The notes under the pieces: model-generated | The model's database searches: none | What the model saw: only the letters and a program-made list of their open reading frames with translations | Told to the model about the DNA's origin: nothing | Shown here: positions 37,707-44,016 of the stretch, one piece after another | How the letters are laid out: each line of letters starts with the position of its first letter | How positions within the stretch are numbered: the first letter of the stretch is position 1 | DNA from: an uncultured Bacteroidales bacterium | Lineage (GTDB): Bacteria > Bacteroidota > Bacteroidia > Bacteroidales > WCHB1-69 | DNA: 46,142 nucleotides | Reading direction: 5' to 3' | NCBI GenBank assembly: GCA_900315705.1 | Contig: ONAB01000028.1 | Coordinates: forward strand, 1 to 46,142 | Program-made: the position numbers and the translations under genes

Positions 37707-38375
37707 ATGATAGAATATAATACCAAACGAAACAAACTCATCATCAGAGAATACGGTCGTAACGTCCAGAAGATGGTGGAGGACACCCTCGCCATTGAGG
37801 ACCGTGACCAGCGCACCGCCGCCGCCCGCGCCATCGTGCGCGTGATGGCCCAGCTCAACGACCCGACCGACAAGCCCACCGTCTCCACCCAGGAATCCAT
37901 CGACTATTGGCACAAGCTCTGGGACCATCTCTACATCATCTCCGACTACAAACTCGACATCGACAGTCCCTTCCCCAAGCCGGTGCCCGACACCAGCGAG
38001 AAGAAGGTGGTGAAACCTGACTACAACAAGCACCGCATCACCCTGCGCACCTACGGGCGCAATATGCAGAACGTCATCAAGGAGGTCTCCTCCTACCCTG
38101 AAAAAGAGCGGGAACGTATGGCCAAAGTGCTGGCCAATGACCTCAAGATGATGTACTTGAGTTACAACCGTGACTCCGTCAACGACGAGCTCATCAAACG
38201 GCAGTTGCACGAACTCTCCGAGGGCGCATTGACCGTGCCCGAGGACTTCTCCCTCTCCACTACCAAGGAGTTGTTGCATCTGGTCAACAGCAACACCTCC
38301 TTCTACATCACGCCTGCCAAGCCCAAGAAGAAGAAAAAGAAAAAGAAGAAAAAGAAAAATCCTCCCACAGAATGA
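37707..38375 (+). CDS. DUF4290 protein with poly-lysine tail
   Basis: A 222-residue protein whose N-terminus 'MIEYNTKRNKLIIREYGRNV' is characteristic of DUF4290, a family largely confined to Bacteroidota. It contains two similar 'Y(N/G)...L..R.YGRN.Q' segments (~4-24 and ~126-145), suggesting an internal duplication. The C-terminus is extreme: PAKP, then 11 consecutive lysines, then NPPTE. The basic tail could contact nucleic acid or the ribosome, which is inference. The stop overlaps the next start as ATGA, so translation is coupled to the ABC transporter. The function is unknown. Confidence 0.85.
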   Translation: MIEYNTKRNKLIIREYGRNVQKMVEDTLAIEDRDQRTAAARAIVRVMAQLNDPTDKPTVSTQESIDYWHKLWDHLYIISDYKLDIDSPFPKPVPDTSEKKVVKPDYNKHRITLRTYGRNMQNVIKEVSSYPEKERERMAKVLANDLKMMYLSYNRDSVNDELIKRQLHELSEGALTVPEDFSLSTTKELLHLVNSNTSFYITPAKPKKKKKKKKKKKNPPTE

Positions 38376-39310: not shown

Positions 39311-40619
39311 CAAGACCTTTCTCATCATCGCCCGCGAATACATCACCCGCGTGCGCAAAAAATCGTTCATCCTCATCACCATCCTGATGCCCATCCTGAT
39401 GGCGCTGCTGATTGCCCTGCCGGCCCTGCTGGTCATCAAGAGCGAACAATCACAACACACCCACGTGCTCGTGGTCGATGACACGGAAATCTTCATCAAC
39501 GGTTTCCAGCCCAACGACAACATCCAGTTCAGCTATGCCTCCGGCAACGTGGAAGCGCTCAAGCAGGACGCCTTCAACAACGAGAAATACGACTGCGTGT
39601 TCCATATCCTTGACAATTCCGTCGGGTTAAAATCGAACCTCTATTACCGGAAGCACATCCCCAGCCATCTCCAGTCCACACTGGAGAGCCAGATGAACGA
39701 CATCTTCTTTGACAAGATGCTGGTGGACTCATTGCACATACAGCCCGACCGTTTTGCCAAGCTGCAAGAACTGACCAAAGCGGACATCACCACTATACAG
39801 GTGGATGACAAGGGCAATGAAAAGGAGAATATCGCCGAGATCAACGAGATTGTCGGAATGTTCTGTGGCTTCTTCATCTATTTTGTCATCATCATTTTCG
39901 CCAGCCAAGTGCTGCGCGGGGTGCTGGAGGAGAAAAGCAACCGCATTGTCGAGGTGCTTATCTCGTCCGTCAAACCAATGCAATTGCTGGTGGGCAAGAT
40001 TGTGGGTATCGCCCTGGTGGGCATCACGCAATTTGTCATCTGGGTAGTGCTAACCTTCGGCATTGTCTCTGTAGTCGGTTTGTTTGCCAACACCGGGTCC
40101 ATTTCGCCCGAAATTACGGAGATGGTAGCCAATGGGGACGCTGCGGACGCCGCGGCCGGACTGAGCATCTTCAAGACTATCGGCGACCATTTCACGTTCT
40201 CGTTCACCACGTTGATTCTCAGTTTCTTCTTTTTCTTCATCGTGGGATATCTCATCTACGCCACCCTGTATGCGGCAACGGGCTCAGTGGTGGACAACGA
40301 GAGCGACTCGCAGCAATACACGATGCCTGTGACCATTCCGCTCCTTTTGGCCATCATCCTCATCCCCACTATAGCCACGAACCCGTCGGGGCAGCTGGCG
40401 TTCTGGTTCTCGATGATACCGCTCACCTCGCCCATCACGATGTTGGTGCGCCTGCCGGCGGGCGTGCCCCTCTGGCAACTGCTCACCTCTATGGGCGTGG
40501 CGCTGCTCTTCCTGGTGTTCTGCATCTGGTTCGCCGCCAAAGTCTATCGTATGGGCATCCTGATGTATGGTAAGAAAAGCAGCTGGAAAGAGATTTTCCG
40601 CTGGTTGAGAAAAGCGTGA
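39300..40619 (+). CDS. ABC transporter permease (NatB/ABC-2 type)
   Basis: The 439-residue membrane protein has one N-terminal helix ('SFILITILMPILMALLIALP'), a ~140-residue extracytoplasmic domain, then five to six helices. The conserved ABC-2 segment 'SQVLRGVLEEKSNRIVEVLI' with SSVKPMQLLVGKIVGIALVG is plain, as is 'PLTSPITMLVRLPAG' near the end. This layout is typical of Na+ or small-molecule exporters of the NatAB group. The substrate cannot be read from sequence. Confidence 0.92.
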   Translation: MKNNKTFLIIAREYITRVRKKSFILITILMPILMALLIALPALLVIKSEQSQHTHVLVVDDTEIFINGFQPNDNIQFSYASGNVEALKQDAFNNEKYDCVFHILDNSVGLKSNLYYRKHIPSHLQSTLESQMNDIFFDKMLVDSLHIQPDRFAKLQELTKADITTIQVDDKGNEKENIAEINEIVGMFCGFFIYFVIIIFASQVLRGVLEEKSNRIVEVLISSVKPMQLLVGKIVGIALVGITQFVIWVVLTFGIVSVVGLFANTGSISPEITEMVANGDAADAAAGLSIFKTIGDHFTFSFTTLILSFFFFFIVGYLIYATLYAATGSVVDNESDSQQYTMPVTIPLLLAIILIPTIATNPSGQLAFWFSMIPLTSPITMLVRLPAGVPLWQLLTSMGVALLFLVFCIWFAAKVYRMGILMYGKKSSWKEIFRWLRKA

Positions 40620-40627
40620 TTTTTTAT

Positions 40628-40635
40628 TATTTTTG
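40628..40635 (+). promoter_or_regulatory. -7 element for the multi-cofactor oxidoreductase
   Basis: TATTTTTG begins 9 bp after the permease stop codon and 94 bp before ATG 40722. It suggests an independent transcript with a leader of nearly 90 bases. No known riboswitch fold was recognised in the leader. Confidence 0.55.
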
Positions 40636-40721: not shown

Positions 40722-43700
40722 ATGTATAAGATTCAGAGTCACCCGATCCTCTCCATCCCTACGGGCGATGAAGTGACCTTTGAATTTAAAGGCCAAATCG
40801 TAAAGGCGCAAAAGGGCTACACCATTGCCGCGGCGTTGCACCAAGCCGGTTTCCCCATCCACAGTCACAGTCTCACCGGACGCGAACGCAGTATGGACTG
40901 CGGCATCGGCAAGTGCGGTGCCTGCGAGATGCTCGTGGACGGTGAAGTGAAGCGCATCTGCATCACCAAAGTGGACGGTGTCCGCAAGGTGGAGGAGATT
41001 GCCCACAACCATCTGCCTGCCAGCACCCCGAACGCCACCAGCGACAAGGGCGTCAAAGTCTATAAGACCGAAGTCGCCATCATCGGCGCCGGTCCTGCCG
41101 GCCTCGCCTGCCGCGAACAACTCAACAAACTGAACATCCCCAACATCGTCATAGACAACAACGACCGCATCGGCGGCCAGTTCACGATGCAGACCCACCA
41201 GTTCTTCTTCTTCGAGAAAGAAAAGAAATACGGCGGTATGCGTGGTTTCGACATCGCCAAGACCCTCGCCGGCGACGACCACTCCGGCATCCTGCTCAAC
41301 AGCACCGTGTGGGACATCCTCGAGGGCAAGCGCGTGGCAGCCAAGAATATGGAGGACAACTCCCTCTTCTTTGTCGATGCCAACTACTTGGTGGTGGCCA
41401 CGGGTGCATTCCCGTTTATGCCCACCTTTGAGAACGACGACCTGCCCGGCGTCTATACCGCCGCCGTCGTCCAAAAGATGATGAACCTGCAGCACACGCT
41501 GCTCGGCAAGCGCATCCTCACCATCGGGGCCGGCAACATCGGCTACCTCACCTCCTACCAGGCAATGCAGGCCGGCGCGCAGGTGGTGGCCATCGTGGAG
41601 GCTATGGACCACGAGGGCGGATTCCCCGTGCAGGCCAACCGCGTGCGCCGTCTCGGCATCCCCATCCTCACGTCGCACACCCTCCTGCGGGCCATCCCCA
41701 ACGAGGACCACACTGGCGTAATTGGCGCCGTCATCGCCGAATGCAAGAACTTCCAGCCCGTGCCCGGCACGGAGCAGGTCATCAAGGATATTGACCTCAT
41801 TAATATATGCACCGGACTGAAGCCCGACAACCTGATTCTGGAAAAGGGCAAGGTCACCTTCGGGCTACACACCTACGGAGTGGGCGACGCCACCCGCGTG
41901 GGCGAGGGCACCTGTGCCGTGCTCCGCGGCAAACAGGCGGCTATGGAAATCGCCCAGGATCTCGGTGTCCGCTTCAACTACGACGACTACCTCGCCGTCA
42001 CCAAGGACTACGCCGACTCGCAACAGCACCCTGTGCGCGTGCTCGACAAGCCCAACCGTCCCGCCGGCGACCGTCTGCAAAAGCCCTTCGTGATGGCCGA
42101 CTGCCTCTACGGCTTCGCCTGCAACCCCTGCACCTTTGCCTGCCCGCAGGGCGCCATCACCAAATCAGCCACCAACTGCGTGCCACAAATCGACTACGAC
42201 AAGTGCATCGGCTGTATGAAGTGCGTGAACCACTGCCCAGGTCTGGCACTGTTTGGCTACAACCTGCCCAAGAACTGGCTCTTCCTGCCGTTTGAGTACG
42301 AGGCCGAGGAAAACGCCGAAGTCTATCTCGTGAACGACAACGGCCAGAAGGTGGGCGAAGGCATCATCGAGAAAATCACCAAGGGTGAAAACAAGACCAA
42401 CGTGGCCCGCGTGAAAGCCCTCAATGTGGAGGGCGAGGCTCTGATGGAGGTCACGGGCTTCATCCTGAAAGAGAGATACCCGAAAGCCCTGAACTGGGAG
42501 AAACTATCCGCCAAGGAAGAGGATCCCGCCTACGTCTGCCATTGCGACGACGTGAAAATCGAGACCATCCTGGCAGCCGTGAAGGGCAAGAAAATCATCT
42601 CCGTGGACGAGCTGAAGCACATCACGCGCATCGGTATGGGCCCGTGCCGCGGCAAGCGCTGCATCCCGCGTGTGAAGCAACTGCTGGCAGGCCACGGCGT
42701 GGAGGTCGTGGGCGACGCCACCCCGCGCGGACCTCTCTCCTCGCAACTCAACATCGGCGAGCTCTGCCCGAGCCAAAAGCCTGAGGAGTTTGTGACCAAC
42801 GTCAACGGCAATCCCACCCAAAAGGTGGAATGCGACGTGTTTGTGGCCGGTGGCGGCATCACGGGCAGCGGACTGTTCCGTTACTTCGCCGAGGCCGGCA
42901 AGAAGGTGGTGCTCTGCAATGCCGAACGCGGCTCCTCCTGGCGCTGCATCGGCGGCGGCCGTCCCAGCTTCTCCGTGCCGGAAATCGCCGACATCGCCGA
43001 GCACAACCGCGCCATCTTCGAGGAGATCCAGAAGGTGACCAACATCAACTACAAGCCCACCCGCTATGTGGGATTCGCCCACGACGAGGCCAACTACAAG
43101 GCCCTGGAGAAATCCCTCGAATGGAGCGACGGCTATATGGTTGACAAGAAGGACTTCCTCAAGGAGGTCTCCCCCTACTTCAACCCGAACCTGAACACCT
43201 ATCAGGCCGCCTGCATCACCAATGCGTGCTGGCAGGCCACGCCCGGCCCCACCATCAATTACATCCGCAACATCGCCATCGAACACGGCGGCGTGCTGCT
43301 GGAGGACACCCGCCTCCTGGAGGTGCGCAAGACCCCCAAGGGCTTTATGGCCCTGGTGAAGACCCACGACAAGCAGTATGTGGAGTACCATTGCGAGCAC
43401 TTCGTGAACGCCCTTGGACCGAGTGCCAACCAGTTTGCCGAGCAGCTGGGTATGCACCTCGGACTCTACCCCATCAAGCACCAGGCCTTCATCACGCACC
43501 GCCTGCCGATGCTGGGCAAGGACGGCGACTCGCTGGATATGCTCATCGACCGCCGCAAGTACAAAGGCTTCTCCGCCGTCTATGGACAGCAGTTCGCGGA
43601 GACCGGCCAGATTATCGGCTGCGCGTCGCCCGCGACCGAGCAGTTACAGGCCGGCAAGGAGCTGAAGTACAACACGCAGGACTTCCTGCAGGTGTGCGCC

Positions 43701-43955
43701 GAGATGTTCATCGACTGGATTCCGCAACTGAAGAACGTCAGCTTCCAGGCCACGTGGGCCGGCTACTACACCGAGCCGCGCTACATCGTGGATCCAGAGC
43801 ATGGCCTCTTGGTCGGTATGCGCGGCCACGGCTTTATGCTCGGCCAGTACCTCGCCAAGATCTACGTTGACAAGTACCTCGGCAAGGAGGCGCCCTCCTA
43901 TATGTCGCGCCTCGCCATCAGCGGCGACGGCCTCAGCGAGAACGCGTTCCAGTAG
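40722..43955 (+). CDS. Single-chain HcnABC-like amino-acid/amine dehydrogenase with ferredoxin modules
   Basis: The 1077-residue protein carries, in order: a [2Fe-2S] domain (~18-100; Cys60, 65, 68, 80 in the HcnA/SoxA pattern); a FAD/NAD(P)-type oxidoreductase (~115-420; FAD motif AIIGAGPAGLA at 119-129, second Rossmann TIGAGNIGYLTS near 267-278, GVGDATRVGEGT); a two-cluster 4Fe-4S ferredoxin (Cys467, 470, 474 and Cys495, 498, 501, 505); a BFD-like [2Fe-2S] domain (Cys606, 608, 642, 647); and a DAO-type FAD amine oxidase (~702-1065; VAGGGITGSG). HcnABC, nopaline/octopine oxidases and archaeal dye-linked proline dehydrogenases use these modules as separate subunits. The likely reaction is oxidation of an amino or imino acid with electrons passed to a carrier. 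It has no signal peptide. The substrate is unknown. Confidence 0.88.
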   Translation: MYKIQSHPILSIPTGDEVTFEFKGQIVKAQKGYTIAAALHQAGFPIHSHSLTGRERSMDCGIGKCGACEMLVDGEVKRICITKVDGVRKVEEIAHNHLPASTPNATSDKGVKVYKTEVAIIGAGPAGLACREQLNKLNIPNIVIDNNDRIGGQFTMQTHQFFFFEKEKKYGGMRGFDIAKTLAGDDHSGILLNSTVWDILEGKRVAAKNMEDNSLFFVDANYLVVATGAFPFMPTFENDDLPGVYTAAVVQKMMNLQHTLLGKRILTIGAGNIGYLTSYQAMQAGAQVVAIVEAMDHEGGFPVQANRVRRLGIPILTSHTLLRAIPNEDHTGVIGAVIAECKNFQPVPGTEQVIKDIDLINICTGLKPDNLILEKGKVTFGLHTYGVGDATRVGEGTCAVLRGKQAAMEIAQDLGVRFNYDDYLAVTKDYADSQQHPVRVLDKPNRPAGDRLQKPFVMADCLYGFACNPCTFACPQGAITKSATNCVPQIDYDKCIGCMKCVNHCPGLALFGYNLPKNWLFLPFEYEAEENAEVYLVNDNGQKVGEGIIEKITKGENKTNVARVKALNVEGEALMEVTGFILKERYPKALNWEKLSAKEEDPAYVCHCDDVKIETILAAVKGKKIISVDELKHITRIGMGPCRGKRCIPRVKQLLAGHGVEVVGDATPRGPLSSQLNIGELCPSQKPEEFVTNVNGNPTQKVECDVFVAGGGITGSGLFRYFAEAGKKVVLCNAERGSSWRCIGGGRPSFSVPEIADIAEHNRAIFEEIQKVTNINYKPTRYVGFAHDEANYKALEKSLEWSDGYMVDKKDFLKEVSPYFNPNLNTYQAACITNACWQATPGPTINYIRNIAIEHGGVLLEDTRLLEVRKTPKGFMALVKTHDKQYVEYHCEHFVNALGPSANQFAEQLGMHLGLYPIKHQAFITHRLPMLGKDGDSLDMLIDRRKYKGFSAVYGQQFAETGQIIGCASPATEQLQAGKELKYNTQDFLQVCAEMFIDWIPQLKNVSFQATWAGYYTEPRYIVDPEHGLLVGMRGHGFMLGQYLAKIYVDKYLGKEAPSYMSRLAISGDGLSENAFQ

Positions 43956-43980
43956 AAACAATCCACAAAACCCTATACAG

Positions 43981-44016
43981 AAAGAGTCGCCGGAAATTTC
44001 GGCGACTCTTTTTATT
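43981..44016 (+). terminator. Terminator of the oxidoreductase gene
   Basis: A perfect 12-bp stem AAAGAGTCGCCG/CGGCGACTCTTT with a 7-base loop is followed by TTATTT. Its T tract overlaps the stop codon of the convergent SDR gene at 44012. Confidence 0.85.

Follow-up and report, generated by a model that had tools for sequence, protein, structure and literature searches.

The locus considered here raises the question of whether one gene can encode, in a single polypeptide, the electron-transfer modules that related amino- and imino-acid dehydrogenases distribute over separate subunits, and what the resulting enzyme would do. The gene lies in a 46,142-nucleotide stretch of DNA from an uncultured Bacteroidales bacterium (contig ONAB01000028.1 of assembly GCA_900315705.1; the whole stretch is called the window below) and encodes a multi-cofactor oxidoreductase of 1077 amino acids. 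An earlier, sequence-only reading had described five cofactor modules in line in this polypeptide. That observation was confirmed with one corrected ligand, and the interpretation attached to it was supported in part. Both the single-chain nature of the protein and its enzyme class are well founded, and it is probably a flavin and iron-sulfur dehydrogenase derived from three-subunit (gamma-alpha-beta) amino/imino-acid dehydrogenases.

A domain search placed all five modules above their curated Pfam cut-offs: Fer2_4, Pyr_redox_2, which binds flavin adenine dinucleotide (FAD), Fer4 (residues 488-510), Fer2_BFD and DAO, in that order (Table 1). The 4Fe-4S dicluster models, which covered residues 466-507, missed their cut-offs when the full sequence was scanned (23.1 of 27 bits for Fer4_9), and Fer4_9 passed its own (28.2 of 27 bits) on the 4Fe-4S segment by itself. 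No Pfam family was found for the small beta domain of residues 511-585. None of the best 25 of 66 NCBIfam matches exceeded its cut-off, the highest being soxA (TIGR01372, 79.4 of 1164 bits).

Table 1. Features of the oxidoreductase gene and its flanks, with positions in the window.
Feature	Position	Strand	Evidence
Single-chain multi-cofactor oxidoreductase gene, 1077 residues	40722..43955	+	Open reading frame from ATG, 1077 codons; homologues
Fer2_4 [2Fe-2S] domain, gamma-subunit counterpart, residues 16-85 (Cys60/65/68/80)	40767..40976	+	Pfam, alignment
Pyr_redox_2 FAD domain, alpha-subunit counterpart, residues 117-381; GAGPAG at residues 122-127	41070..41864	+	Pfam, alignment
Second dinucleotide motif GAGNIG, residues 269-274, then Glu293	41526..41543	+	Family and subunit alignments
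2[4Fe-4S] ferredoxin-type segment, residues 461-505 (Cys461/467/470/474 and 495/498/501/505)	42102..42236	+	Pfam, alignment
Small beta domain of the insert, residues 511-585	42252..42476	+	
BFD-like [2Fe-2S] domain, residues 604-656 (Cys606/608/642/647)	42531..42689	+	Pfam, alignment
DAO-type FAD domain, beta-subunit counterpart (OdhB, PDH1 beta), residues 705-1049	42834..43868	+	Pfam, alignment, fold
Ala1010-Thr-Trp1012, at the position of the Arg-x-Trp putative FMN-binding motif	43749..43757	+	Alignment
Promoter-like box TATTTTTG, TAnnTTTG type	40628..40635	+	Motif count in representatives
Intrinsic-terminator-like hairpin, 16-pair stem, loop of 3	43979..44013	+	

Conservation of the cluster ligands was assessed in 120 distinct sequences, aligned from 140 family members of at least 1040 residues. 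Sixteen cluster cysteines were conserved: fifteen (Cys60, 65, 68, 461, 467, 470, 474, 495, 498, 501, 505, 606, 608, 642, and 647) were invariant, and Cys80 was present in 119 sequences. The ligands proposed earlier for the two [2Fe-2S] clusters were thus borne out. The sequence-only reading had also placed an eight-cysteine 2[4Fe-4S] site at Cys467-505. A dicluster segment is indeed there and seven of its ligands stand, but Cys486 is a cysteine in just 8 of the 120 sequences and is not a ligand; residues 467-505 hold only seven conserved cysteines, and the eighth ligand is Cys461. Under the motif definitions of PMC4575208, the N-terminal motif C-x4-C-x2-C-x11~12-C is present as Cys60-x4-Cys65-x2-Cys68-x11-Cys80, the ADP-binding GxGxxG occurs in both the alpha-like (Gly122/124/127) and the beta-like part (Gly710/712/715) of all 120 sequences, and the second motif, C-x-C ... 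C-x4-C, is found in all of them at Cys606/608/642/647. The spacing within this last motif is x33 in the 1077-residue protein and was counted as x32 in the pTiBo542 alpha subunit; a figure legend in PMC4575208 gives x15~20, which matches neither. Three further cysteines, Cys363, Cys836, and Cys967 (41808-41810, 43227-43229, and 43620-43622), were invariant in the 120 sequences and lie outside the recognised cluster motifs.

The reference set for the three-subunit enzymes consisted of five operons from Ti and other plasmids, of the opine-dehydrogenase type, which code for gamma, alpha, and beta in that order. The 1077-residue protein aligned with gamma, then alpha, then beta of these operons, a colinearity that upholds the earlier claim that all modules of the HcnABC/NoxAB-type enzymes are present in one chain. 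The set and order of modules ([2Fe-2S] gamma, FAD and BFD alpha, DAO beta) are those of OdhABC (NoxA/B, OoxA/B), D-hydroxyproline dehydrogenase, and HcnABC, and both cysteine motifs and both ADP-binding motifs are common to these enzymes. The order of the hcnABC genes is likewise the order of the modules. However, those enzymes consist of three chains, and the Bacteroidales protein of one. It also carries an extra insert of about 135 residues (about 461-595, comprising the 2[4Fe-4S] segment and the small beta domain), which has no counterpart in the alpha subunits of the five plasmids, and an intact second GxGxxG.

A further difference concerns flavin mononucleotide (FMN). The portions of PMC4575208 that describe OdhABC give it as an alpha4beta4gamma4 complex with two FAD, one FMN between alpha and beta, and a [2Fe-2S] cluster, and name the arginine of an Arg-x-Trp motif as the putative FMN ligand. 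This residue is arginine in all eight reference beta subunits, whereas in the Bacteroidales family it is alanine in 117 of the 120 sequences and serine in 3. Because its subunits are not separate and the FMN motif is not conserved, the protein was not filed as a member of the three-subunit family. Also in the DAO domain, a segment at residues 939-950 (43536-43571), with an invariant Asp-Arg-Arg at 943-945, exceeds the length of the aligned stretch in proteobacterial beta subunits and is possibly a substrate lid.

The single chain recurs widely among relatives. Of 393 Bacteroidales genomes sampled, 151 contained a match (E ≤ 1e-20), and in 141 of these the match was full length, in one open frame without stops. 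Ten matching genomes lacked a full-length frame (G568, G587, G743, and the seven named next). A check of the contigs of G487, G575, G606, G709, G733, G735, and G798 showed that each of nine truncated pieces breaks off no more than 10 bases from the end of its contig, on the cut side. The near set, made up of the window's own genome and 60 relatives, contained the full chain in 35 of 61 genomes, at 61-95% identity to the window protein (its own copy aside); the tally of 58 matching genomes in this set includes weak matches to other iron-sulfur and FAD proteins. Four further genomes held pieces. Those in G003 and G026 end at contig ends, the copy in G016 is split across two contigs and broken by unread bases, and in G027 the frame changes within a contig, with 79% identity over residues 1-142 and 94% over 148-1077; this may reflect an assembly that mixes two strains or a genuine break. 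G012 had a full copy and also another N-terminal piece, 79% identical, lying at the end of a contig. At the loci of G027, G012, and G026 (L163, L166, and L167), the N-terminal piece is 79-82% identical to the window's and the other copies or parts in these genomes are 94-97% identical. The divergence might stem from assemblies that mix strains or from recombination within the first 150 codons.

A full-length copy, 64.6% identical and annotated 'FAD-dependent oxidoreductase', is present in a circular record of the human gut species Parabacteroides distasonis. This record (NZ_OY725834.1, 219 kb) is labelled a plasmid, and the homologue lies near integrase, fimbrillin, ppdK, and rlmD genes; the last two look like ordinary housekeeping genes, and the label may merit a check. 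A search of named genomes confirmed 519 relatives, of which the best 80 were titled Bacteroidales, Bacteroidia, Bacteroidetes, or subgroups, with one exception titled 'uncultured bacterium'. Many of the carriers came from rumen and gut samples, and others from elsewhere. In a sample of 395 genomes from the phylum, of which five besides the window's genome were shown as the same order, only the window's genome had a match. The protein therefore belongs to a conserved family of Bacteroidales, as sampled within its own phylum. No study of the single-chain family and no assigned function were found.

The closest solved relative is Pyrococcus horikoshii PDH1 (1y56), a dye-linked L-proline dehydrogenase, whose sequence is the nearest to the alpha-like as well as to the beta-like half, with 22% identity in the DAO domain. 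By fold, PDH1 and sarcosine oxidase tied at the top for this domain, and a search with it ranked amino/imino-acid enzymes first. The proposed link to amino or imino acids holds to this extent; it did not narrow to a specific substrate. PDH1 differs in that its entry has two chains, its alpha lacks the Fer2_4 cysteines in the alignment, and it has Arg-Thr-Trp where the Bacteroidales chain has Ala-Thr-Trp. Heterotetrameric sarcosine oxidase (2gag, 1vrq) is similar in its SoxA-like N-terminal half and SoxB-like DAO fold, but the soxA score was far below cut-off, and sarcosine oxidase is made of separate subunits. We know of no 4Fe-4S insert in sarcosine oxidase.

Judged from the sequence, the protein would work like the OdhABC, HcnABC, and PDH dehydrogenases, an assignment that is well founded for the class. 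The substrate, a small amino acid or imino acid (or else an N-substituted amino acid), would donate a hydride to the DAO domain. The electrons would then pass through the BFD [2Fe-2S] and two [4Fe-4S] clusters, which would stand in for the FMN situated between alpha and beta in the related enzymes. From there they would reach the second FAD and the N-terminal [2Fe-2S] cluster, and a soluble carrier, most probably ferredoxin or nicotinamide adenine dinucleotide (phosphate), NAD(P), would take them up. It is this electron path, the self-contained electron wire of the earlier reading, with its class of substrate and its acceptor, that we infer.

Several observations weigh against this picture. 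The predicted structure has low confidence at residues 59-66, the site of two cluster ligands, and DAO folds also serve glycerol-3-phosphate (4x9m, rank 50 in the fold search). The neighbouring genes include no conserved one that would suggest a substrate, nor did two co-occurrence tests in the 393 genomes reveal a substrate or an acceptor. Pro_racemase (PF05544) matched 53 genomes, of which 35 were kept (E ≤ 3e-19) and 18 with weaker partial matches, 5 of them above the curated cut-off, were dropped; the oxidoreductase occurred in 11 of the 35, compared with the background of 151 in 393 (p 0.47), and a hydroxyproline route was rejected. PRODH (PF01619) was present in 228 genomes, including 100 of the 151 with the oxidoreductase (odds ratio 1.75, p 0.012, ignoring kinship), and a role as a PRODH replacement was rejected as well; this co-occurrence is neither replacement nor a firm link. 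The window's own genome had no match to PF01619 or PF05544. A PRODH gene is the divergent neighbour in L109 (6605-7495), L151 (5657-6826), and L152 (7916-9091), and lies about 8 kb away in L153. These are 4 of 153 loci, many of them with short flanks, and a single family (f20) accounts for L151, L152, and L153, L109 being unplaced; the vicinity is a weak hint at proline or its relatives as substrate.

Other explanations were weighed. It is somewhat unlikely that the protein is an ordinary member of the class in one piece, which would retain its FMN although the residue has changed and would use the insert only as a ferredoxin docking port. Colinearity fits such an enzyme, as do the segments 'KHQA', 'WAGYY', and 'GHGFM', which are common to PDH1 beta and the Bacteroidales chain, but the putative FMN-motif arginine is replaced throughout the family, and the invariance of the insert's eight cysteines suggests more than a port.

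Unlikely, too, is an enzyme that runs mainly as a reductase, in which NAD(P)H (through the second GxGxxG) and/or reduced ferredoxin (through the 4Fe-4S clusters) would deliver electrons to the DAO flavin and on to an imine or similar compound. GAGNIG and Glu293 are invariant in all 120 sequences, whereas the five three-subunit alpha subunits have a degenerate motif at the corresponding position. The 4Fe-4S insert is well matched to donors of low potential, the potential of imine/amine couples is higher than that of NAD(P), and rumen and gut Bacteroidales are prominent among the carriers. However, an intact second motif is no proof of NAD(P) binding, and to our knowledge no DAO-fold enzyme runs mainly as a reductase. 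A broader proposal, which we hold just as tentatively, is an FMN-less architecture in which iron-sulfur clusters replace the FMN relay and a single chain links NAD(P)(H) and ferredoxin to an amine/imine couple; such an enzyme might serve as an imine reductase or even perform confurcation or bifurcation between the two carriers.

A hydroxy-acid or glycerol-3-phosphate dehydrogenase, like the GlpA-derived single-chain enzymes of Giardia and Entamoeba, is quite improbable. The earlier note knew of no characterised single-chain version of an HcnABC-type dehydrogenase, and no sequence-close characterised protein was found; however, passages of PMC4450592 and PMC10480196 report single-chain glycerol-3-phosphate dehydrogenases, characterised in Giardia, where the enzyme oxidises glycerol-3-phosphate with phenazine methosulfate and a tetrazolium dye (PMS/MTT), and described in Entamoeba. 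According to these passages, gG3PD and EhG3PDH are likewise chains of about 1100 residues with DAO, BFD, and Pyr_redox_2 modules in anaerobes, but their order is DAO-BFD-Pyr_redox_2-DUF1667 rather than Fer2_4-Pyr_redox_2-Fer4-BFD-DAO, their DAO domain is of the GlpA type, and the descriptions given there name no Fer2_4 or 4Fe-4S module. The window protein matched GlpA (TIGR03377) at 54.7 bits, best over the BFD domain, against a cut-off of 552.8, and amino/imino-acid enzymes rank first for its DAO domain. The last explanation, an assembly or sequencing artefact joining separate genes, was rejected as having practically no chance: nothing speaks for a join, G027 shows the opposite case of one gene in two frames, and the one-frame chains of 141 genomes, the pieces ending at contig ends, and the circular P. 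distasonis copy speak against it.

Preferring the single-chain dehydrogenase, we turn to its transcription, for which a separate promoter and terminator had been proposed. TAnnTTTG, which we take to be the Bacteroidetes -7 box, occurred in the 150 bp upstream of the gene in 34 of 48 representatives; 300 Markov shuffles gave 6.7 on average and 13 at most. A sigma-70-like site lies at 40605-40633; two such sites in the region, against 1.2 expected in shuffles, are not significant alone. These boxes and the strong hairpin at the window locus argue for a single-gene unit, and the flanks appear to be those of a gene transcribed alone. The earlier view of a stand-alone gene outside any degradation operon also agrees with its surroundings. 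An operon, or guilt by association, was rejected, with the commonest neighbour cluster within six genes found in only 6 of 94 loci. Same-strand gaps below 60 bp were few: 2 of 137 loci upstream (both with open reading frames that look spurious by eye) and 13 of 135 downstream (several spurious by eye). Among the loci so counted are near-identical ones and some from genomes that occur in both of two collections, and one locus with a whole copy (L093) was dropped by the gene caller.

In the window, genes named by eye from their sequence include ATP-binding cassette (ABC)-transporter-like genes upstream and a convergent short-chain-dehydrogenase-like gene downstream; neither is conserved beside the oxidoreductase gene in relatives. 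Elsewhere in the window, a 222-residue open reading frame at 37707-38375 ends in a lysine run (KPKKKKKKKKKKKNPPTE) encoded by a purine tract at 38320-38362.

About two in five sampled Bacteroidales genomes carry this enzyme, and Parabacteroides distasonis has a copy. The heteromeric members of the HcnABC/proline-dehydrogenase superfamily studied so far depend on several subunits, and this enzyme offers a single-gene test object for electron transfer in the superfamily and for the way an enzyme can lose its FMN relay. Its substrate, once found, would give common rumen and gut anaerobes an unrecognised reaction.

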